In this document: in pieces, positions 5,601 to 34,571 of the stretch
Position numbering within the stretch: position 1 is the stretch's first letter
Layout of the letters: every line of letters starts with the position of its first letter
NCBI GenBank assembly: GCA_039028635.1
Contig: JBCCHV010000025.1
Coordinates: forward strand, 1-64,000
DNA from: Acidobacteriota bacterium
Lineage (GTDB): Bacteria > Acidobacteriota > Thermoanaerobaculia > Multivoradales > JBCCEF01
Length of the DNA stretch: 64,000 bases
Direction of reading: 5' to 3'
The notes under the pieces: generated by a model
Seen by the model: the letters and a program-made list of their open reading frames with translations, nothing else
The model's database searches: none
What the model was told of the DNA's origin: nothing
Translations under genes and position numbers: made by a program

Positions 5601-6461
5601 ATGTCTCGCATCGCCATCCTCTCGGACATCCACGGCAACGTTCCCGCCCTCGACGCCGTCCTGGCGGACATCGCCTCTCAAGACGTCGACGAAACCCTGG
5701 TGGGTGGCGATCTCGTCGGGCGGGGTCCGCAGGGATCGGCCGTCACCCGACGCATCCGCGAGCTTGGCCTCGCCACCATCGGGGGAAATCACGAGGAGTA
5801 CCTCCTCGACTTCCGCCGCGGCAATATCCCGAGCTCTTGGCACCATGACGAAGAGTGGGCCGCGGCGCGCTGGATGGCCGCCGAGCTCACCTCCGAGGAC
5901 GTCGAGTACATCGCTGCCCTGCCCTTCTCGCTCCGCCGACCGGGCATGCGGCTGGTGCACGGCACTCCGGCGTCGAACCGCGACGGCATCGGACCGTGGA
6001 CCAACGAAGCCCGCCTCGAGGAGCACTGGAACGCAGTGCCGGAGGGGGTTCTGGTCTGCGCCCACACCCACCGCCCGCTGATCCGCCACGTCGCCCAGGG
6101 GATGATCGTCAACATCGGCTCCGTGGGCATGCCCTTCAACCGCGACCAGGCGGCCCAGTACGCCATCTTCGAGAGCACCTCCGACGGCTGGGAAGTCGAG
6201 CTGCGACGGGTGCCCTACGACCTCGAAGAGGTCTATCGCGCCTACGACCGCACCGGCTTCCTCGCCGACGGCGGCGTCACGGCGCGCCTTCTGCGCCTCG
6301 AGCTCGAGCACGCTTCGCCGCTGCTGGTGCCCTTTCTCGAGTGGGCGCGACGACAGCGTCTCGAGCCCTCCCTGGGCCATCTCGACCGCTTCTTCGAGTT
6401 CCATCGACCGGGCGAGTCCCTGCGCCACTTCTTCTCCCGCCTGCAGGAGATCGACGCCTAG
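5601..6461 (+). CDS. Metallophosphoesterase family protein, YfcE/MJ0936-like
   Basis: This 286-residue cytosolic protein carries the calcineurin-like phosphoesterase motifs in order: D-x-H (ILSDIHGN, residues 6-13), GD..G (VGGDLVGRG), GNHE (IGGNHEEY) and the paired C-terminal histidines (CAHTHRP), with NIGSVGMPFN typical of the YfcE-type subgroup. These ligate two metal ions for phosphodiester or phosphomonoester hydrolysis. I chose the ATG at 5601 because MSRIAILSDIHGN is the usual family start; upstream residues do not resemble the family. The final third (from about residue 200) has no motif I recognise. The substrate is not predictable. Confidence 0.85.
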   Translation: MSRIAILSDIHGNVPALDAVLADIASQDVDETLVGGDLVGRGPQGSAVTRRIRELGLATIGGNHEEYLLDFRRGNIPSSWHHDEEWAAARWMAAELTSEDVEYIAALPFSLRRPGMRLVHGTPASNRDGIGPWTNEARLEEHWNAVPEGVLVCAHTHRPLIRHVAQGMIVNIGSVGMPFNRDQAAQYAIFESTSDGWEVELRRVPYDLEEVYRAYDRTGFLADGGVTARLLRLELEHASPLLVPFLEWARRQRLEPSLGHLDRFFEFHRPGESLRHFFSRLQEIDA

Positions 6462-6558
6462 CAGGCTGCTGAGAAAGCCGCGTGGCGGCTTCAGCGCCTG
6501 CTGTTTATTTCAGGGGCGGCCGGCCAGGGGGGCTAAAAGTTCTTCAGCAACCTGCTAG
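6458..6558. repeat. About 100-bp inverted-repeat element
   Basis: The arms CTAGCAGGcTGCTGA (6458-6472) and the complementary TCAGCAaCCTGCTAG (6544-6558) pair with one mismatch. A nested hairpin (GCTGA...GCCGC / GCGGCTTCAGC) follows the left arm. The element overlaps the stop codon of the phosphoesterase gene and fills the gap before the alkaline phosphatase gene. It could be a transcription terminator or a short non-autonomous element; a U-tract is not evident. Confidence 0.6.
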
Positions 6559-6626
6559 CGTCCTTGCGACGATCGGCGAATACCGCGAGACTAGGCGTCC
6601 GATCACCGACCGAGAAGGAGAGCGAG

Positions 6627-7856
6627 ATGCCGACCGTCAGTCCGCAGCGGGTCATCCTGGGCGTCGTCATGGGAGTCCTCGCCCTCGGCTGGGTGCTCCT
6701 CGCCCTGTGTTTCTTCGGCGTCGAGCTGCCGCGCCCGTCGCACGGCGGAGGCGAGCCGATCGATGGTTCCCCCATCGACTTCGCGATCGGTGAGAGATCC
6801 CCACTGGCACAGCCGACTGGCACTGTCGAGGGCGAGCTCGCGAACCAGCCCCAGGCCACCGCGACACCGCGCAATCTCATTCTGTTCCTCGGCGACGGCA
6901 TGGGCTACTCCCACGTCGCCGCCGCCCGCGCCACCCGCCGGGGCGCCCGCCAACCCCTGCTCTTCGAGCGCTTGCCCTACTCGGCGGCGATCACCACCTT
7001 CTCCGCCTTCAGCCTCTACACCGACTCCGCCGCCGGCGCCACCGCGCTGGCCAGTGGCGTGGCGGTCCCCCCCGGGCACCTGTCCGTCGATGACCGCGGG
7101 CGTCCGGTGCGAACCCTGTTCGAGGCCGCCCGGGAGGCGGGCAAGGCGATCGGCCTGGTGACCGATTCGTACCTCTGGGACGCCAGCCCCGCGGCCTTCG
7201 TGGTGCACCGCGAGAGCCGCCGCGAGTATGGCCAGATCCTGGCCGATATGGCGACCTCCGGAGCCGACCTGCTGGTCGGCGAATCGTCCGACCACGAAGG
7301 CACCGAAGAGGCCGCCAGCGTCCTCCAGCGTCAGCATCGCCTGGCCGAGACCTGGAGCGATCTCGAGGCTTTGGAGTCAGCCGAGGAACCGGCTGCGGGC
7401 CTCTTCGCGGCCGGCACCATCGCCGACCGAGAGCAAGAGCCCACCCTGGCCCAGCTCACCGCCTGGGCGGTTCGCCGCCTGTCGCGCAATCCTGCCGGTT
7501 TTTTCCTCTTCGTCGAGACCGAGGAGCCGGACACGGGCTCCCACCGCCACCAGATCGATCGCGTCCTGAACGGCATCGCCGCCCTCGACGAAGCCGTCGC
7601 CGAGGGCCTCGAGGCTCCGGCCGATACCCTCGTCCTGGTGACCGCCGACCACGAAACGGGAGGTCTCGGGATCGTCGGCGGCAGCGCCGATTCGCCCCTC
7701 GAGGTCGCCTGGACGAGCACCAGCCACACCGCCGAACCGGTCCCTCTCTACGCCTGGGGTCCCGGTGCCTCACGCTTCACCGGTAGCCTCGAAAACACCG
7801 AGGTGGCCCGCCGCCTCGCCGACCTCTTCGGCTTCGAGCTGACGCCCTCGCCGTGA
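6627..7856 (+). CDS. Alkaline phosphatase family protein, membrane anchored
   Basis: This 409-residue protein has the PhoA-type metal centre: NLILFLGDGMG (Asp metal ligand), YTDSAAGATALASG with the nucleophilic Ser following Asp (near residue 134), VTADHETGGL and TSHTAEPVPLYAWGP, which supply the C-terminal His and Asp ligands. An uncleaved N-terminal helix (about residues 8-32) anchors it in the inner membrane with the domain outside. It hydrolyses phosphomonoesters, presumably for phosphate scavenging. The ATG at 6627 is preferred for its AAGGAG six bases upstream. Its stop overlaps the next gene by four bases (GTGA). Confidence 0.88.
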   Translation: MPTVSPQRVILGVVMGVLALGWVLLALCFFGVELPRPSHGGGEPIDGSPIDFAIGERSPLAQPTGTVEGELANQPQATATPRNLILFLGDGMGYSHVAAARATRRGARQPLLFERLPYSAAITTFSAFSLYTDSAAGATALASGVAVPPGHLSVDDRGRPVRTLFEAAREAGKAIGLVTDSYLWDASPAAFVVHRESRREYGQILADMATSGADLLVGESSDHEGTEEAASVLQRQHRLAETWSDLEALESAEEPAAGLFAAGTIADREQEPTLAQLTAWAVRRLSRNPAGFFLFVETEEPDTGSHRHQIDRVLNGIAALDEAVAEGLEAPADTLVLVTADHETGGLGIVGGSADSPLEVAWTSTSHTAEPVPLYAWGPGASRFTGSLENTEVARRLADLFGFELTPSP

Positions 7857-25612: not shown

Positions 25613-26779
25613 GTGTCACAGCGACTTTCGGTAGCAGAGCTGGCGAATCTCTACGGTTTTCCGGAGAAGGTCGACGGCAAGGGCGAGACCATCGGCATCA
25701 TCGCCCTCGGCGGCGGCTACTACCCGGAGGATGTCGAGCTTCTCTTTCGCAGCCTCGGTCAACCGGCCCCCAAGATCGTCGACGTCAGCGTGCCCGGCCA
25801 CCAGAGTCGCGGCACCAACCGACCGGTGAGCCGCGAGATACTGCAGCAGCTCGTCAAGGCCTTGGCCGAAGGCTCGGCACCGCCGCCCGACGCCATCGCC
25901 ACCCTCGAGACTTCGATGGACGTGCAGATCGCCGCCGCCTTCGCGCCGGGCGCCGATCTGGTGGTCTACTTCGCGCCCAGCGCGGACGCCGAGGGCTTTC
26001 TCTACACGCTGCTCACGGCGATTCATGATTCGACCCACCGGCCTTCCGTCATCTCCCTGAGCTGGGGCTGGCCGGAGCCCGAGGAGATGGCCGACGGCCA
26101 GGCCAAGGCCGGGGTCATCCAGGCCGTCGACGAGCTCTTCGCCCTCGCCTCCCAGAAGGGCATGACCCTCTGCGCCTCGTCCGGAGACACCGGTTCCGGC
26201 GTCGGCCTCCCGGCGGCCGACGAGGCCACCGCCATCGATTGGGTGCAGTTTCCCGCCAGCAGCCCCTATGCCCTGGCCTGCGGCGGCACCTCCCTCGATG
26301 GCGCCGGCCTCGAAGAGGTGGTTTGGTCGGTCGACGTCGGCGGCACCCTCTACGCCAGCACCGGTGGTGCCTCGAAGCTGTTCGATCGCCCGGAGTGGCA
26401 GCAGCGCATCGTCTGCTCGACCCTCCCCGGCCTCGGCCGCGGCGTTCCGGACGTCGCCGGCCTCGCCGATCAACGCTCCGGCGTCACCTTCTATCTCGGC
26501 GGCGCCGAGCAAGGCTCCGCCGGCACCAGCGCCGCCGCCCCACTGTGGGCTGCCCTCATCGCGCGCCTCAACGAGGCCCTCGGCCGCCGCCTCGGTCACG
26601 TCAATCCACGCCTCTACCGCATCGCCAAGGACGATCCGTCGATCTTCCGCGATGTCGTGGCGGGCTCGAACGGCGGCTTTCGCGCCAGCCTCGGGTGGGA
26701 TCCCGTCACCGGCTGGGGCAGTCCCCACGGCGAGAAGCTCCTCGCCGCCCTTGCCGCCGACCTCGAGGCGTTTCCTTAG
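25613..26779 (+). CDS. S53 family serine peptidase (sedolisin) lacking propeptide
   Basis: This 388-residue protein comprises the catalytic domain only. It has Glu and Asp of the triad in L-E-T-S-M-D (about residues 100 and 104), the oxyanion Asp in SSGDTGSG (about 191) and nucleophile Ser in G-T-S-A-A-A-P (about 305), plus the C-terminal calcium site (IFRDVVAG ... GWDPVTGWGSP). Sedolisins normally have a signal peptide and a propeptide of roughly 170-200 residues; both are missing here and the product starts directly at LSVAELANLYGFP. A strong GAGGAG precedes the GTG at 25613. It may act in the cytosol or need another route out. Confidence 0.88.
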   Translation: MSQRLSVAELANLYGFPEKVDGKGETIGIIALGGGYYPEDVELLFRSLGQPAPKIVDVSVPGHQSRGTNRPVSREILQQLVKALAEGSAPPPDAIATLETSMDVQIAAAFAPGADLVVYFAPSADAEGFLYTLLTAIHDSTHRPSVISLSWGWPEPEEMADGQAKAGVIQAVDELFALASQKGMTLCASSGDTGSGVGLPAADEATAIDWVQFPASSPYALACGGTSLDGAGLEEVVWSVDVGGTLYASTGGASKLFDRPEWQQRIVCSTLPGLGRGVPDVAGLADQRSGVTFYLGGAEQGSAGTSAAAPLWAALIARLNEALGRRLGHVNPRLYRIAKDDPSIFRDVVAGSNGGFRASLGWDPVTGWGSPHGEKLLAALAADLEAFP

Positions 26780-27885: not shown

Positions 27886-28305
27886 CTAACGCTTGAGGGA
27901 GTCGCGAATCTCCTGCAGCAAGACGACCTCCTCGGAGGGCTTGGGCGGCTCGGCCGGCGCTTCCTCTTCCTGTTTGCGCGCCTTGTTCATGGCCCGCACC
28001 ATCATGAAGATGACGAAGGCGATGATCACGAAATCGAAGATCGTCTGGATGAAGCTGCCGTAGTTGATCGTCGGCGCCCCGGCTTCCTGGGCGGCAGCGA
28101 GGGTGTCGTAGGGAACGTCCCCCAGGTTGATGAACAGCTTCGAGAAATCGACTCCGCCGAGCATCTTGCCGATCGGCGGCATGATGACGTCATTGACCAG
28201 CGAGCTGACGATCTTGCCGAAGGCACCACCGATGATGATGCCGACCGCCATGTCGATCGCATTGCCCTTGACCGCGAACTCCTTGAACTCTTCCATCATG
28301 GACAT
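27886..28305 (-). CDS. mscL: Large-conductance mechanosensitive channel MscL
   Basis: This 139-residue channel opens under membrane tension to release solutes on hypo-osmotic shock. It has the N-terminal amphipathic helix ([19 protein letters not shown]), TM1 ([22 protein letters not shown], the pore-lining gate), a periplasmic loop, TM2 ([18 protein letters not shown]) and a charged cytoplasmic bundle. The ATG at 28305 has a perfect AAGGAGG seven bases upstream. It begins a 5-kb cluster that holds two further mechanosensitive-channel genes. Confidence 0.95.
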
Positions 28306-28470: not shown

Positions 28471-29334
28471 CTAGAAGCTCACCACCAAAGCGACTGAAAA
28501 GATGGAATCCAGATCGTCCAGCTCGACCAGCACCGTCTGGGAGCCGGGTGACGCCACTGGGGTCACCAGGTCGACTTCCGTCAGGGCTGGCTGATTGTCG
28601 TAAAGCAGTTGCAAGCTGGTCTTGAGAGCCAAGCGCTCGCTCATCGCCACGGCCAGCGCTAGAGTCGTGTCGGCCCGATAGTCGGAAGTCTCATCGAAGT
28701 TGGTATCGATCGCCAGGACGTTGGTGAACGTGGTGCTCTCCGTCAGCAGGCGCCGATAGTCGTAGGACAATCGCAGGCCGAGATAACCATCGTCGGAATT
28801 TTCGCCTTCGAAGATATCATCTTGCTTGGTGTAGGTAAGGCCGTAGTCGGTGCGCAGGGCGGTGGTTTCGTCGTCGAACCAAACATTGCCGACACCGGCG
28901 ATACCGACGTAACGGTTCTCGAAGCCGGCGAACTCGTTGCGCTCCCAACGAGCCCCGAAAAACCAGAAAAATGCATCCGTCAGATGGCGGTCGTAGCGCC
29001 CGGCGAGCAGGTAGTTCTCCGCCGTCAGGTCCGACTCCGAGTCCTCCCGCACCCGAAAGCCGCCGGTGCCATCGCCGATCGCGGTACGCGGCGTCACCGT
29101 CGATTCGGCCCGCAAGGCCGCCGCCACCAGCTCGAATCGAGCCTTCTCCCACTGGTGCTCCAGGACATTCCGCAGGCCGAGGGTTTCGGCCTCGGCGTTG
29201 CCCCCGGTCGCAACATAGGTGAGCTCGGCGACATCCGACCAGCCAAGCTTTCTTTCCTCCTCCTCGGCCCCGGTCAGTCCGGGGAACAGCAACACTCCCA
29301 ACCAGAGTGCGGTCCACTTCAGGCTCTGCTTCAT
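28471..29334 (-). CDS. DUF481 family outer-membrane protein
   Basis: This 287-residue protein has a signal peptide (about residues 1-23) and the DUF481 pattern: an N-terminal ELTYVATGGNAEAETLGLRN strand pair, GARWERNEFAGFENRY, and FSDDG-like turns, ending in VALVVSF with a terminal Phe, as expected for a BAM-inserted barrel. In proteobacteria, DUF481 proteins such as YdiY are induced by envelope or acid stress. It sits between mscL and the MscS operon on the same strand. An AGGAG precedes its ATG. Confidence 0.8.
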   Translation of the reverse strand: MKQSLKWTALWLGVLLFPGLTGAEEEERKLGWSDVAELTYVATGGNAEAETLGLRNVLEHQWEKARFELVAAALRAESTVTPRTAIGDGTGGFRVREDSESDLTAENYLLAGRYDRHLTDAFFWFFGARWERNEFAGFENRYVGIAGVGNVWFDDETTALRTDYGLTYTKQDDIFEGENSDDGYLGLRLSYDYRRLLTESTTFTNVLAIDTNFDETSDYRADTTLALAVAMSERLALKTSLQLLYDNQPALTEVDLVTPVASPGSQTVLVELDDLDSIFSVALVVSF

Positions 29335-29433: not shown

Positions 29434-30258
29434 CTACTGGCGAGCGACGTCTTCCAAAAAGACGCTGTTGGCGATGGCGACCGTCCGTCCCTCGTGCTCG
29501 AGGAGCGTCTGAGTCGGCCCGATGACCTTCAATACACCCCGCTCGCCGCGAATCTCCATCTCGTCTCCGACTCGGAAGATCTTGCGAGCGTAGAAACCGG
29601 CCAGGATGCTGCGGGTGATGTCCCGAGTTCCCAGGCCCAAAGACAGACCGAAGGCCAGGGCCAGACCGGCGAGGCAACAGAGAGTAACAATTCGAATGAT
29701 CTCTGTCTCGATGCGGAGCTGACTCAGGGCCATGATCCCGGCCACGAACAGAATCAAGGCCGAGGCCAGGCTGCCGAGGGAGGATCCGAAGTCGATACCG
29801 GCGCCGGCCGCCATCCGCCCCACGGCACGACCCGCCACCTGCCCTCCCAGGCTTCCGAGAATCAGAATCACCACCGCCGCGACGAGCCGCGGAAGATAGG
29901 CGAGGAAGGCTCCCATCGCCTCGGCGACGGCACTCAGCCCCAGCGCCTCGGCCGCCGTCCGCGCGAACAGGAAGAGCAGCAGGAAGTAGATAACCCGCGA
30001 CACCAGGCGATGGGCCGGTGCCGAGATGCCGAGCCTCTCGAGGCTCTTGTCGAGACCCAGCTTCGCCATCAAGGTATCGAAGTGAAGGCGCCGCAGGGCG
30101 CCTCGCAGGATCCACTCGCAACACTTGGCGACCAGCAGCGCCAACACCAGGAGAAGAAGCCCGAGGAGCACTCGCGGCAGGGCGGCAACGGTCGAGCGCA
30201 AGGCACCATCGAAGGCCACCAGCAATTGATCGCCCAGGGCGACGGTCTCATCCATCAT
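29434..30258 (-). CDS. MscS-family mechanosensitive ion channel, short form
   Basis: This 274-residue channel has several helices (about residues 25-45, 85-105, 115-145, 160-185), the pore-helix region LAGLALAFGLSLGLGTRDITRSILAGFYARKIFRVGDEMEI and the beta domain ERGVLKVIGPTQTLLEHEGRTVAIANSVFL. It ends right after the beta domain, so the C-terminal alpha/beta part of the MscS cage is missing. The start overlaps the end of the upstream 75-residue gene by 11 bases, linking it to the sigma factor gene. Confidence 0.85.
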   Translation of the reverse strand: MMDETVALGDQLLVAFDGALRSTVAALPRVLLGLLLLVLALLVAKCCEWILRGALRRLHFDTLMAKLGLDKSLERLGISAPAHRLVSRVIYFLLLFLFARTAAEALGLSAVAEAMGAFLAYLPRLVAAVVILILGSLGGQVAGRAVGRMAAGAGIDFGSSLGSLASALILFVAGIMALSQLRIETEIIRIVTLCCLAGLALAFGLSLGLGTRDITRSILAGFYARKIFRVGDEMEIRGERGVLKVIGPTQTLLEHEGRTVAIANSVFLEDVARQ

Positions 30259-30475
30259 CGTTCTTCTCCTCGGGGGAACCCATCAGGTCGAAGGTGGCAC
30301 CGAGGAGCTCCCGGGTGATTTGGGTCACGGCGGACCACGAAAGGCCCACCAGATCCGCCGCCAGGTGGCGGCGCTCGATACGTTGCCGAACCTGCTCTAC
30401 GAAGCCCTCCCGCGGCGGCTCGCGCAGATCGCCCAGCAGACTGATCGGCTCGCCCATCGCGTCGTCTCGGGTCAT
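30248..30475 (-). CDS. Small protein between sigma factor and channel (anti-sigma candidate)
   Basis: This 75-residue soluble protein has no clear domain. It includes the amphipathic segment EPPREGFVEQVRQRIERRHLAADLVGLS, similar in style to short anti-sigma-factor N-termini ('P..gf...v..ri..r'). The ATG overlaps the sigma factor stop by four bases, and its stop overlaps the channel start by 11 bases, so its position is that of an anti-sigma factor or a small linker. Its function is inference from the location. It shows no zinc-binding HxxxCxxC motif. Confidence 0.6.
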   Translation of the reverse strand: MTRDDAMGEPISLLGDLREPPREGFVEQVRQRIERRHLAADLVGLSWSAVTQITRELLGATFDLMGSPEEKNDDG

Positions 30476-31053
30476 CCTTCCACCTCCCGCCGGTAGCGTC
30501 GGCGAAACTCTTCTCGGCCACGTTTGATTCTCATTTTGACCGCCGAAAGCCCGACGCCCAAAGTGTCGGCGATCTGCTGGTAGCTGAGGCCATCGGCATC
30601 GCGCAACACCAGGGGCACCCGCAAGGTGTCGGGCAACTGGCGCAAGATCGCCGCGATGCGTCGCCGATCGCGCCGCGACACCACCTCCTGCTCGGCCCGC
30701 GACGGCACCTGCATCTGCGGCGCCACGGCCACCACCTCGTCCTCCAGGGACACCGCATTCCGGAGCTTGTTCTTCTCCAGGAAGTTGAGGCAGTGGTTGA
30801 TCTTGATGCGCTGGACCCAGGTCCCGAAACGTGCCCGGCCCTCGAATCCGTCGACACCGAAGAAGGCCTTCACGAAGACCTCCTGAGCAAGGTCCCGAGC
30901 CTCCTCCGAGCCGCCCGTCAGGTAACGGCAATTGGCCAGCACCTGGGCCTCGTGGCGCGCCACCAGAATCTCGAAAGCCCGCAAGTCTCGGTCTTCCGCC
31001 TGCCGCCAGCGCTCGACCAGCTCTTCATCGGGAAGGTCTTCGAGCGAGCTCAT
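30472..31053 (-). CDS. ECF-type RNA polymerase sigma factor
   Basis: This 193-residue sigma factor has region 2 (about 20-90) with RDLAQEVFVKAFFGVDGFEGRARFGTWVQRIKINHCLNFL and region 4 (about 130-185) with LPDTLRVPLVLRDADGLSYQQIADTLGVGLSAVKMRIKRGREEF. It directs polymerase to a specific regulon. The ATG at 31053 has GGAG five bases upstream. Genes follow with four- and 11-base overlaps: a 75-residue protein and an MscS channel. A perfect 22-bp palindrome lies 25 bases before its start, toward the divergent channel gene. Confidence 0.9.
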   Translation of the reverse strand: MSSLEDLPDEELVERWRQAEDRDLRAFEILVARHEAQVLANCRYLTGGSEEARDLAQEVFVKAFFGVDGFEGRARFGTWVQRIKINHCLNFLEKNKLRNAVSLEDEVVAVAPQMQVPSRAEQEVVSRRDRRRIAAILRQLPDTLRVPLVLRDADGLSYQQIADTLGVGLSAVKMRIKRGREEFRRRYRREVEG

Positions 31054-31077
31054 CAACTCTCCAGACCGGGCACAACA

Positions 31078-31099
31078 CAAAAAGTCACGTGACTTTTTG
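31078..31099. promoter_or_regulatory. Perfect 22-bp palindrome (operator candidate)
   Basis: CAAAAAGTCAC is immediately followed by its exact reverse complement, centred on CACGTG. It lies between the divergent sigma factor gene (start 31053) and the 618-residue channel-like gene (start 31258), close enough to affect transcription from the sigma promoter. With no spacer and complete symmetry it looks like a binding site for a dimeric regulator; a bidirectional terminator with flanking A and T tracts is the alternative. Confidence 0.75.
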
Positions 31100-31257
31100 C
31101 GCAACGACTTGTCTGAGGAAATGGAGGTGCTCCCCATGGGCGAATTCGCCCCGCGGGAGAACCCATCACGATCGACATGAATCGGCACCGACGAGCCGGG
31201 TCGAGCTCGACCACTGGTCGGCCGCCGAGTTTCCGAATGCCATGGAGGTTCGAAGAG

Positions 31258-33114
31258 ATGAGGATGATGACCATCGCAGGAAGAGTCCTGCTCCTCGCGG
31301 TTCTGATCTGGTGTCTGCCCATGACCTTGGCGGCCCAGGAGCCCGACCCCGGCGCGACCGCCGGAACGTCCGTCAGCAGTGCAGAGGTCGACAACCCGAC
31401 CGCCCCGGCGACAGCCCCCGATCCAGCACCAACGGATCCCGCGGCGACGGCGGACCAGGATCCCTCGGTGGTGGGGACGGTGGTGGGTGGCGCCCAGCGG
31501 ACCGCGAGCTCGAGCGTCGGAGCCGTCGGTGAAGCGGTCAGCGAGACCGCCGGCGCGGTCAGCGGCGGCCTCGCCGAGGTCGCCAGCCAGGGCAAGGCCC
31601 AGTGGCGCGAGGTCCTGATGCCGATGGGCCAGCGCTTCGCGGCGGCTTTTCCGTCGGTGGTCAAGGCCATCGCCCTGCTGCTGTTGTTCTGGCTGGTGGC
31701 GCTGCTCGCCGGCGCAGCGGTGCGTAAGGTCCTGAGCTTGACCGACAAGGACGAGAAACTGGCTCGCGATTGGGGCCTCGAAGGCTTCCTCAAGCGCAGC
31801 GACGGTAGCGAGCGCAAAGTCGACGACATCGCGGGCACGGTGGTCAAGTGGATCATTCTGCTCTTCGGCTTCGTCGCCTTCTTCAACGCCCTCGATCTCG
31901 AGCTGGTCGCCAGCCCGCTCCAGAACGTCCTCAACACGGTCACCGGTGCGGTGCCTTCGTTGCTCAAGGCGGCGGTCATCCTACTCGCCTACTGGGCGAT
32001 CGGCAGCGTCGTCAAGCTGGCGGCGACCAAAGGCCTGGGCGCCCTCGGCTTCGACCAGCGCGCCGGCCGCTTCCTGCCGCCACGGGAAATCAAGGGCGAA
32101 ACCGTCGGCCCGAGTGCGCTGGTCGGCCGGCTGCTGTTCTACATCATCCTGCTGCTCGGCATCCTGCCCTTCCTGCAGGCCCTCGGCCAGGAGTCGCTGG
32201 TCGCTCCGCTGCGCGACATGATGGCCAAGGTGCTGGGCTTCATCCCCAACATCGTCGCCGCCCTGATCCTGCTCTTCGTTGGCAAGATCATCGCCACCGT
32301 GGTGCGCGAGATCGTGACCAACTTCCTCGCCGCCACCGGCATCGACGGAGTCGCCGAACGCTTCGGTTTCGGTCAGGGAGAGAAAACCAAGAAGGTCTCG
32401 GAGATCGCCGGTGCGGTCGCCTTCTTCTTCATCATCATCCCGATTCTGGTGGCCGCCGTCGACAGCCTCAAGGTACAGGCCATCTCCGATCCGGTGAAGA
32501 GCACCCTGGAACAGTTGATGGCCGCGATTCCCTTGATCTTCGTCGCCTTGGTGGTGATCGCCGTCGGCTACTACATCGCCCGCGCCGTGCGCGGCTTCGT
32601 CGAGTCGTTCCTCTCCGGTGTCGGCTTCGACGGCCTGCCGAAACGCCTTGGTTTGAGCTTTCTCGAACCGCGCGATGGCGCCATGTCGCTGTCCGCCATC
32701 GGCGGCACCGTGGTGATGGCGGTCATCCTGTTGCTCACCGCCGAGCAGGCCCTCGCCACCCTCGGCCTACACCAGCTCTCGGACCTGGTCGGAGGCCTGC
32801 TGGCGTTCCTGCCGAGCCTGGGAATCGGCCTGGCGGTGATTCTCGCCGCCCTCAGCCTGGGCCACTACGTCTCGGAACTGCTCGGACGGGTCCTGGCGAG
32901 CTCGGCCCATCGCGCGATCGTTCAGGCGGTGGCCAAGTGGGCAATCGTCTTCCTCGGCTTCAGCATGGGCCTGAACCAGCTGGGAGTGGGTCAGGAAATC
33001 ATCGTCATCGCCGTCTCGGCGGTGCTCGGTGGCGCCGCCCTGGCGCTCGGCCTGGCCTTCGGCCTGGGCGGCCGAGAGAAAGCGCGCGAGATCATCGATC
33101 GCGGCAATCTGTAG
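31258..33114 (+). CDS. Large MscS-helix-repeat membrane protein (CmpX-like)
   Basis: This 618-residue protein has a signal-like N-terminus (about residues 5-25), an Ala/Pro/Asp-rich linker, and at least three repeats of a helix pair with a conserved 'ki...v..iiG.fi....l....l..al.' pattern. Examples are VVKWIILLFGFVAFFNALDL, FFIIIPILVAAVDSLK and AKWAIVFLGFSMGLNQLG, each alternating with P-x-hydrophobic helices such as VPSLLKAAVILLAYWAIGSVVK. It ends with the pore-like GGAALALGLAFGLGGREKA. These are the conserved TM helix repeats of CmpX-type proteins. It lacks a MscS beta domain. The ATG at 31258 has GGAGG upstream. Confidence 0.82.
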   Translation: MRMMTIAGRVLLLAVLIWCLPMTLAAQEPDPGATAGTSVSSAEVDNPTAPATAPDPAPTDPAATADQDPSVVGTVVGGAQRTASSSVGAVGEAVSETAGAVSGGLAEVASQGKAQWREVLMPMGQRFAAAFPSVVKAIALLLLFWLVALLAGAAVRKVLSLTDKDEKLARDWGLEGFLKRSDGSERKVDDIAGTVVKWIILLFGFVAFFNALDLELVASPLQNVLNTVTGAVPSLLKAAVILLAYWAIGSVVKLAATKGLGALGFDQRAGRFLPPREIKGETVGPSALVGRLLFYIILLLGILPFLQALGQESLVAPLRDMMAKVLGFIPNIVAALILLFVGKIIATVVREIVTNFLAATGIDGVAERFGFGQGEKTKKVSEIAGAVAFFFIIIPILVAAVDSLKVQAISDPVKSTLEQLMAAIPLIFVALVVIAVGYYIARAVRGFVESFLSGVGFDGLPKRLGLSFLEPRDGAMSLSAIGGTVVMAVILLLTAEQALATLGLHQLSDLVGGLLAFLPSLGIGLAVILAALSLGHYVSELLGRVLASSAHRAIVQAVAKWAIVFLGFSMGLNQLGVGQEIIVIAVSAVLGGAALALGLAFGLGGREKAREIIDRGNL

Positions 33115-33201: not shown

Positions 33202-34188
33202 TCAGGTCGCGACCTGGCCCGAGAGGCGGCCGACGGCGGCCAGACGCGGAGCGATCTCGGAAGGCGGCGCCCAGCCCGAGGCCGACTCGAGGCGGTCACC
33301 GAAGAAGACCAGCGAAACTCGCTCGTTGACGGCGATCGGTACCACCATCACGCCGGTCGGGCGGCGGCCGAGCCACTGCGACAGGGCGCCGTGTACCGGC
33401 GACGGATCGAGCGGCCCCCAGAAGGGTATCTTCTCCGCCACCACCCGGCGCAACACGGAGGGCTCCTGCAGCGAGACCCTGAGCTCCCGAACGCGATCAT
33501 CGCCCCCTTCGATCCCGCGCTGGCCGACGCCTCGCAGCTCCCCTCCAACGCGCTGAAAGAGCAAGCAGCGCTGAAAGACGTCGGCTCCGACCTCGAGAAT
33601 TCGCGAGCTCATCTCGGCCGTCACCTCGGTACCGGCCAGCTCCTGGCGCAAAATGCCGAGGGTCGCCCCCGGCTCTTGTCGGCTGCTGCGCAGGCGGTCC
33701 ATCACCCGCTCCACGATCTCGTCCGTCGGCAGGCCTTCGGCGACCACGAAGTCGGTCAGATCGACCCCCATCTCGCCGCGTTCCGGGATTTCCAGGGGCT
33801 CGAACTTGAACAGGCCGTCGCTCCACTGGAACATTACGGCGAGGGTCTGCTCGACCTGCTCCCGCAGCACCGACAGCACGGTCGCTTCGTCGATCACCCC
33901 CATCTCCAGGAGCAGACTTCCGAGGCGCTGCTCTTCGAGCGCCGTGCTCTGCCGAACCAGCGCCTCTTGCAGGATCTCCCGGCTGACCAGACCCCGCATC
34001 AGCAGGATCGAGCCGAAGGTCTCGCGCGCCGCATTGGTCGCGGAGTAGATGATCTGTCCATCGCGGAACACCAGCAGGCCTTGATCCTCGGCCCGACGGA
34101 TCAACAACTTACCGGAGAAACCGTTGGTGGCAACGAGCTGCAGCAGGTGCGGTAGCGCGACTTGCGCAAGACTTCCCGAGAGGCTCAT
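33202..34188 (-). CDS. DUF4388 (PATAN-like) domain protein
   Basis: This 328-residue cytoplasmic protein starts with the DUF4388 signature: LSGSLAQVALPHLLQLVATNGFSGKLLI, then GLLVFRDGQIIYSATN and FGSILLMRGLVSREILQEAL. A second helical region (about 90-160) with LGSLLLEMGVIDEATVLSVL and FQWSDGLFKFEP resembles the continuation often seen after DUF4388. The C-terminal 120 residues are unassigned. In Myxococcota and Acidobacteria such proteins act in signalling linked to motility or development, often beside receiver domains, but no kinase is adjacent here. A strong AGGGAGGG precedes the ATG. Confidence 0.8.
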   Translation of the reverse strand: MSLSGSLAQVALPHLLQLVATNGFSGKLLIRRAEDQGLLVFRDGQIIYSATNAARETFGSILLMRGLVSREILQEALVRQSTALEEQRLGSLLLEMGVIDEATVLSVLREQVEQTLAVMFQWSDGLFKFEPLEIPERGEMGVDLTDFVVAEGLPTDEIVERVMDRLRSSRQEPGATLGILRQELAGTEVTAEMSSRILEVGADVFQRCLLFQRVGGELRGVGQRGIEGGDDRVRELRVSLQEPSVLRRVVAEKIPFWGPLDPSPVHGALSQWLGRRPTGVMVVPIAVNERVSLVFFGDRLESASGWAPPSEIAPRLAAVGRLSGQVAT

Positions 34189-34571
34189 GACACCCTCCCT
34201 AATTCCCCATTCAACAGACCAAGACCCAGCGGTGCTCAAGGTAGAACGACCTTCAAAAGAATTCTGATCATAGCGATCCACAAAGTCACAGCTCAAGGCC
34301 TCTAAGAATTCCCGCACACCCTAATCAATCCTCGGGGGCCAAAAGACAAATCGCGCAGCTTTCCCACCGAGGACAAAATATGCATAATCATCTCTAAGTT
34401 GAAACGTATAGCCGCCACCACAACCCAGGCTGCCAACAGCCCGAGATGAAAGCCCCGCGGGTCAAGCCCATGGGTCCTCCGGCGCGCCGCCAAGGCGAGT
34501 CGAGGAGGCGATGCCGACCCTCACCACCGGCTGTTAATGTACGGCGCTCGATATCGTCCGACACCGAAGCC
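34189..34571. other. Intergenic region upstream of proB
   Basis: The 383 bases between the divergent DUF4388 and proB starts contain no supported gene. Bases about 34360-34415 are AT-rich and likely hold a promoter, but no confident -35/-10 pair was identified. No hairpin stands out. The proB start itself has no good ribosome binding site. Confidence 0.45.

Follow-up and report, generated by a model that had tools for sequence, protein, structure and literature searches.

The window, a 64,000-nucleotide stretch of contig JBCCHV010000025.1 from an Acidobacteriota bacterium, encodes an extracytoplasmic function (ECF) sigma factor in an operon with a 75-amino-acid protein and a channel related to MscS. 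Our overall reading, which we hold with moderate confidence, is that the operon belongs to an envelope-tension regulon of the kind controlled by SigX in Pseudomonas, with the small protein acting as an anti-sigma factor or adaptor. We established by computation that the operon is conserved, that the clades of its sigma factor and channel are congruent, that these clades have a promoter motif and a recognition helix in common, and that their small proteins are similar. Since sigma factor, small partner and channel are combined in one operon under a promoter code of their own, the arrangement points to a switch by which membrane stretch could act on gene expression.

The operon and its conservation

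The operon is on the minus strand. In the 193-amino-acid sigma factor (30472..31053), TIGR02937, Sigma70_r2 (1.5e-12) and Sigma70_r4_2 (1.2e-13) were all above the Pfam or NCBIfam cut-off; with regions 2 and 4 only, the protein falls in the ECF class. Its gene meets the 75-amino-acid open reading frame (ORF; 30248..30475) in the sequence ATGA, a 4-base overlap, and that ORF overlaps the gene for the 274-amino-acid CmpX-type channel (29434..30258; PF05552, 8e-12) by 11 bases. Divergent from the operon, on the plus strand, is the gene for a 618-amino-acid repeat channel (31258..33114) with five MS_channel_1st_1 (PF05552) stretches. Both overlaps and the divergent repeat protein had been claimed in a preliminary description of this DNA, and both are as it described them.

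We used the channel to search the order, class and phylum of the source organism, sampling 396 genomes from the phylum; many of the genomes searched are draft assemblies. There were 22 close channel homologues (clade A), distributed over 11 families of the phylum. Conservation of the gene order in related genomes had been proposed as a check, and the order of sigma factor, small protein and channel was kept in all 21 of the clade A loci whose contig extends to the sigma factor gene. Overlaps were measured in 20 clade A loci, and in about half of these each of the two junctions had an overlap of exactly 4 bases. Because both the order and the 4-base overlaps recur, the arrangement goes beyond chance. 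The small-protein ORF was interrupted in one locus (L122), and a stop was present inside the channel gene in three genomes. A more distant group of eight loci (clade B) has the order sigma factor, 110-128-amino-acid protein and CmpX-like channel, and a repeat channel is usually close to these genes. We found no CmpX in plasmids and no OprF in viral contigs. It is somewhat probable that the sigma factor, small protein and channel form a co-inherited, translationally coupled signaling unit.

Congruent trees of sigma factors and channels

The sigma factor tree was built from 79 ECF sigma factors, including those of clade A (21), clade B (8) and the Pseudomonas SigX/CfrX/CmpX system (clade X; 16), together with other ECF sigma factors of the window's genome. 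Clades A, B and X each formed one group (support 100/97, 100/98 and 100/98, respectively), and the other ECF sigma factors of this genome were apart from them. The channel tree had the same three groups with the same members (100/100, 100/99 and 99/97). The invariant gene order and the recovery of the same three groups in both trees argue for the SigX-type reading. A and X were separate in the sigma factor tree, placing the window's sigma factor outside the SigX (ECF102) clade as sampled. Neither A and X as a single sigma clade (approximately unbiased test, p = 0.517) nor A, B and X as a single clade (p = 0.395) was rejected.

For the channel, A and X are separate clades of one family, which makes the window's channel a CmpX-type partner. 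It is 35% identical to Pseudomonas CmpX over 226 amino acids, and both proteins have 274 amino acids. A profile match to the PDB covered residues 24-168 of E. coli MscS, comprising transmembrane helices TM1-TM3 and the beta domain, and places the channel in the MscS family. PF00924 (MS_channel_2nd) was not reported above cut-off for the channel by Pfam, nor at this locus in the genome search. A structural model (mean pLDDT, the predicted local distance difference test score, 80) had long helices and the beta domain and lacked the alpha/beta cage; Foldseek ranked MscS first for this model, with a poor overall superposition (template modeling score about 0.26).

A common promoter motif and recognition helix

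We found the motif GTGAC(TT)-N17/18-GTC(T) upstream of the operons in all three clades, and it is the putative promoter of the sigma factor. In exploratory counts, it preceded the sigma factor gene in 14 of 21 clade A loci and 5 of 8 clade B loci, whereas Markov shuffles led us to expect 0.45 and 0.18. It preceded cfrX in 83 of 87 X loci, most of them closely related Pseudomonas, compared to 4.6 expected; among X loci, it was present in L129 and absent from L232-L234 and L236. None of 37 other ECF genes, from this genome and from P. citronellolis, had the motif. The recognition helix of the window's sigma factor is LSAVKMR, and SA[VTA]KMR was present in nearly all A and B sigma factors, in most X sigma factors and in no other ECF sigma factor compared. 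The presence of the motif before sigma factor genes, cfrX and linked channels but before none of the other ECF genes, together with the recognition helix found in these three clades, is a second argument for a SigX-type regulon.

Two putative sigma-dependent promoters, each with a spacer of 17, lie back to back in the window: GTGACTTTTTGTGTTGTGCCCGGTCTGG before the sigma factor operon (31061..31088, minus strand) and GTGACTTTTTGCGCAACGACTTGTCTGA before the repeat channel (31089..31116, plus strand). Their -35 boxes together form the palindrome AAAAAGTCACGTGACTTTTT. Only about 10 bases separate the -10 element of the operon site from the sigma factor start codon (region 31053-31066), and the transcript would therefore be almost leaderless. 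A scan for sigma-70 promoters returned no site.

The motif also precedes probable targets. It was present before 10 of 12 sigma-linked repeat channels (0.38 expected) and 4 of 6 linked mscL genes (0.19 expected), in counts made when a few of the sites, among them that of the repeat channel in the window, were already known, and before 1 of 6 repeat-channel copies without the sigma factor. It was also present before the DUF481 homologues of L045 and L046. By prediction, the regulon thus includes the channels; the preliminary description had named their exclusion as grounds for giving up its proposal. That description had also placed mscL and a DUF481 protein just beyond the operon, and we found mscL at 27886..28305 and a DUF481 outer-membrane barrel at 28471..29334 (Pfam and, for mscL, NCBIfam), both on the minus strand. 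Both are probable outer members of the system. In clade A, the sigma factor is linked to repeat channels in L044, L045, L047 and L127, to mscL in L044, L047, L115, L118 and L121, and to DUF481 in L045, L046, L116 and L127.

The strict form GTGACTT-N15/16-GTCT occurred at six sites in the 6.28 Mb genome, compared to none for the reversed control. Two of the six are in the window and one precedes a DUF4388 gene (L281). The other three (C7, C9 and C21) fall within genes or where a gene begins, and look fortuitous as promoters. In other genomes that have the system, strict sites preceded mscL, DUF481, DUF937, and genes for an FHA-EAL protein and a DUF4332 protein; some sites in these genomes, such as those before an aconitase and a response-regulator gene, may be due to chance. 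The single-contig genome G203 had strict sites before an unlinked PF05552 repeat channel, before a DUF937 gene and before a porin resembling OprF (31 bits in Pfam OprF; TSP_3; C terminus of the OmpA type) directly upstream of the sigma factor. There were no strict sites in a congener (G001) that has no such sigma factor.

Several other genes were observed near the motif or in the window. DUF937 genes with the motif were seen in L282 and L294, divergent from the sigma factor in one genome and unlinked in the other, and DUF937, a family of unknown function, may thus be a new member of the regulon. In L114 (8956-10695, minus strand) and L283, the motif lies before an OprF-like porin with an OprF domain, TSP3 repeats and an OmpA-type end; the porin is directly upstream of the clade A sigma factor gene, resembling the oprF-sigX neighborhood of Pseudomonas. 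In the window, the repeat channel adjoins a gene on the minus strand (33202-34317) for a DUF4388 protein with an MshE-type motif for binding cyclic di-GMP (38.8 bits, barely above cut-off), and an ORF for a sedolisin-like (S53) protease, judged by eye from the sequence, is at 25613-26779 on the plus strand.

The small protein and its relatives

The 75-amino-acid protein is a putative anti-sigma factor or adaptor. Neither it nor its relatives (20 family members) matched a Pfam family. The AlphaFold2 model has a helix at residues 9-15 and a long helix at 25-64, and we found no fold match to this model in the PDB. In a profile comparison, the family aligned with a diverse set of CfrX proteins (score 26; E = 3.6e-4 for a single comparison), and none of 150 column shuffles scored as high (maximum 17.1). 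A CfrX profile from Pseudomonas alone had no significant match to the family; the match required the more diverse set.

The middle protein of clade B carries HxxxCxxC, and zf-HC2 was detected in seven of the eight at E < 0.1; three of the matches exceeded the curated cut-off. The 75-amino-acid family aligned with the C-terminal half of these zinc anti-sigma factors (score 32 over 54 columns; shuffle maximum 17.7). The clade B protein was only weakly similar to CfrX (score 15.6; reached in 1 of 150 shuffles). An anti-sigma role for the 75-amino-acid protein is suggested because a zf-HC2 anti-sigma factor with an alignable C-terminal half fills the same slot in clade B, and because the family aligns with CfrX, the proposed anti-sigma factor of SigX (PMC8999054). 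The element common to the small proteins is likely a basic helix followed by a hydrophobic helix. This C-terminal helix is hydrophobic or amphipathic, and in most members it carries too much charge to be a clear transmembrane segment. The element may dock on the channel or at the membrane, in which case the part that binds the sigma factor would differ between clades.

The system in Pseudomonas

SigX (ECF102), the 84-amino-acid putative anti-sigma factor CfrX, and CmpX have been discussed, along with OprF, as a mechanosensing complex (PMC8999054). SigX is induced by low salt (PMC3875570) and controls cfrX-cmpX, and sigX mRNA increases with valinomycin (PMC7641640). The SigX promoter consensus has been described as not precisely defined (PMC7641640), and a SigX logo was published by Schulz et al. 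in 2015 (PMC4362757); given this logo, the motif may already have been described in Pseudomonas.

We collected 80 Pseudomonas and Azotobacter loci using OprF. In the Pseudomonadota sample, CmpX homologues at E < 1e-50 were followed by a sigma factor gene, and wherever the upstream side was inspected, a small CfrX-like ORF preceded them. The Pseudomonas order of small protein, cmpX and sigma factor was also found in a locus from another lineage within the phylum of the window (L129; minus-strand match region, oriented 6049-7797), which has a CfrX-like protein of the DPFE type and a GTGACTTTT...CGTC site. A scan of five Pseudomonas loci did not reveal the motif upstream of oprF. A conserved GTGAC-N18-CGTC site was observed right after the cmaX stop codon in Pseudomonas (L133, 3089-3117). 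This site may be the putative proximal cfrX promoter to which a 13-nucleotide 5' untranslated region in published transcription start site data points (PMC7641640).

Proposed mechanism and alternatives

In the mechanism that we propose, the hydrophobic C-terminal helix of the small protein would tether it to the membrane of an unstressed cell; there the small protein, probably bound to the channel, would keep the sigma factor inactive. Membrane tension, for example upon hypo-osmotic shock, would alter the channel and release the hold on the sigma factor. The freed sigma factor would then transcribe from GTGAC(TT)-N17/18-GTC(T), activating in the window the operon that encodes it and the divergent repeat channel and, in relatives, also mscL, DUF481, DUF937 and the OprF-like porin. 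The use of the motif as the promoter, the anti-sigma activity, the docking of the small protein on the channel, the role of tension as the signal and release without proteolysis are the proposed parts of this scheme, and all of its experimental support is from Pseudomonas. The preliminary description had suggested a membrane-tension or osmotic-stress regulon. As a hypothesis this is well supported by the gene order, the congruent trees, and the motif before the sigma factor, repeat channel, mscL and DUF481; we infer the flow of signal from channel to sigma factor. In its most specific form, the mechanism is tentative: an anti-sigma factor would be held directly by a mechanosensitive channel and set free without proteolysis when the membrane is stretched, and the switch would command the cell's other tension valves in at least two phyla and three clades, one of which retains a zinc anti-sigma domain.

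Several findings weigh against the SigX-type reading. The system is patchy, present in 16 of the 396 sampled genomes including the window's own, and the single sampled congener (G001) does not have it, the sigma factor being missing. The 75-amino-acid sequence has no cysteine, and no zinc finger (HxxxCxxC domain) was matched in 20 family members; its likeness to CfrX is at the level of profiles and spans 46 columns. Seven of 21 clade A loci had no strict motif directly before the sigma factor, and the window's mscL and DUF481 genes have no copy of their own. The motif counts for clades A and B are partly in-sample because these upstream regions are where we initially spotted the motif. Lastly, overexpression of cmpX in P. 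aeruginosa left expression of sigX and cfrX unchanged (PMC10965496).

The main alternative is that the channels are outputs only. The small anti-sigma factor would sense the state of the lipids or membrane, perhaps with its hydrophobic or amphipathic C-terminal helix, which might be enough to sense the bilayer. The sigma factor would be released, the channels made under its control (CmpX, the repeat channel and MscL) would be protective valves, and CmpX would send no signal. The repeat channel and mscL do look like targets, and in P. aeruginosa the SigX targets were unaffected when cmpX was overexpressed (PMC10965496). However, this explanation does not account for the strict match of the sigma factor and CmpX trees or for the channel adjoining the small protein in every locus, and the other putative targets, unlike the channel, move freely between loci. 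We consider it unlikely, though it deserves serious attention. It is quite improbable that the small protein is instead an accessory subunit or assembly factor of the channel, with the sigma factor controlled by transcription alone (positive autoregulation) or by another input. The 75-amino-acid family has no recognizable anti-sigma domain, and the small protein adjoins the channel in clade X too (cfrX-cmpX-sigX), but the zinc-finger anti-sigma factor in the same slot of clade B, with its related C-terminal half, argues against this role. A fortuitous operon of unrelated envelope genes would fit the patchy distribution and the congener without the system, but is very unlikely given the order in 21 of 21 loci, the tree congruence, the common motif and the unlinked site before the G203 repeat channel.

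The comparison bears on three questions in Pseudomonas: the control of SigX, the possible role of CfrX as its anti-sigma factor, and the form of the SigX promoter. It yields a candidate promoter and a signature for the recognition helix, a clade with a zinc-finger anti-sigma factor in the CfrX slot, and a set of tension valves predicted to form a regulon. It makes direct control of a sigma factor by a channel testable, and carries the idea beyond Pseudomonas to a second phylum.

Comparison with known systems

The window's channel has the core of E. coli MscS (TM1-TM3 and the beta domain); it differs in having extra N-terminal transmembrane helices and no cytoplasmic alpha/beta cage. Zinc-binding anti-sigma factors (ZAS, class I) fill the small-protein slot in clade B and align there with the 75-amino-acid family through their C-terminal half, whereas the 75-amino-acid protein itself is without the HxxxCxxC domain. 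Like class II anti-sigma factors of the CnrY type, it is short, with two helices and no zinc domain (PMC7406223), a resemblance in predicted helix layout alone.

The closest comparison is with SigX-CfrX-CmpX. The preliminary description had stated that no described ECF group has this set of partners, which is incorrect: ECF102 (SigX), with CfrX and CmpX, has it (PMC8999054). It had also named CmpX/SigX as a partial parallel. The parallel exists, and "partial" is too weak a term for a homologous 274-amino-acid channel, an adjoining small partner with profile-level similarity, the same GTGAC -35 element and the SAxKMR recognition helix; an OprF-like porin is also upstream of the sigma factor in L114 of clade A. 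The motif GTGAC-N17/18-GTC is common to the window and the region upstream of cfrX, where it is a predicted SigX promoter. The systems differ in that the window's sigma factor is in its own clade, that its order is sigma factor, small protein and channel rather than cfrX-cmpX-sigX as in ECF102, and that its neighbors are the repeat channel, mscL and DUF481 rather than cmaX and oprF. The window's system is of the same kind as the SigX system, though its sigma factor lies outside the sampled SigX clade.

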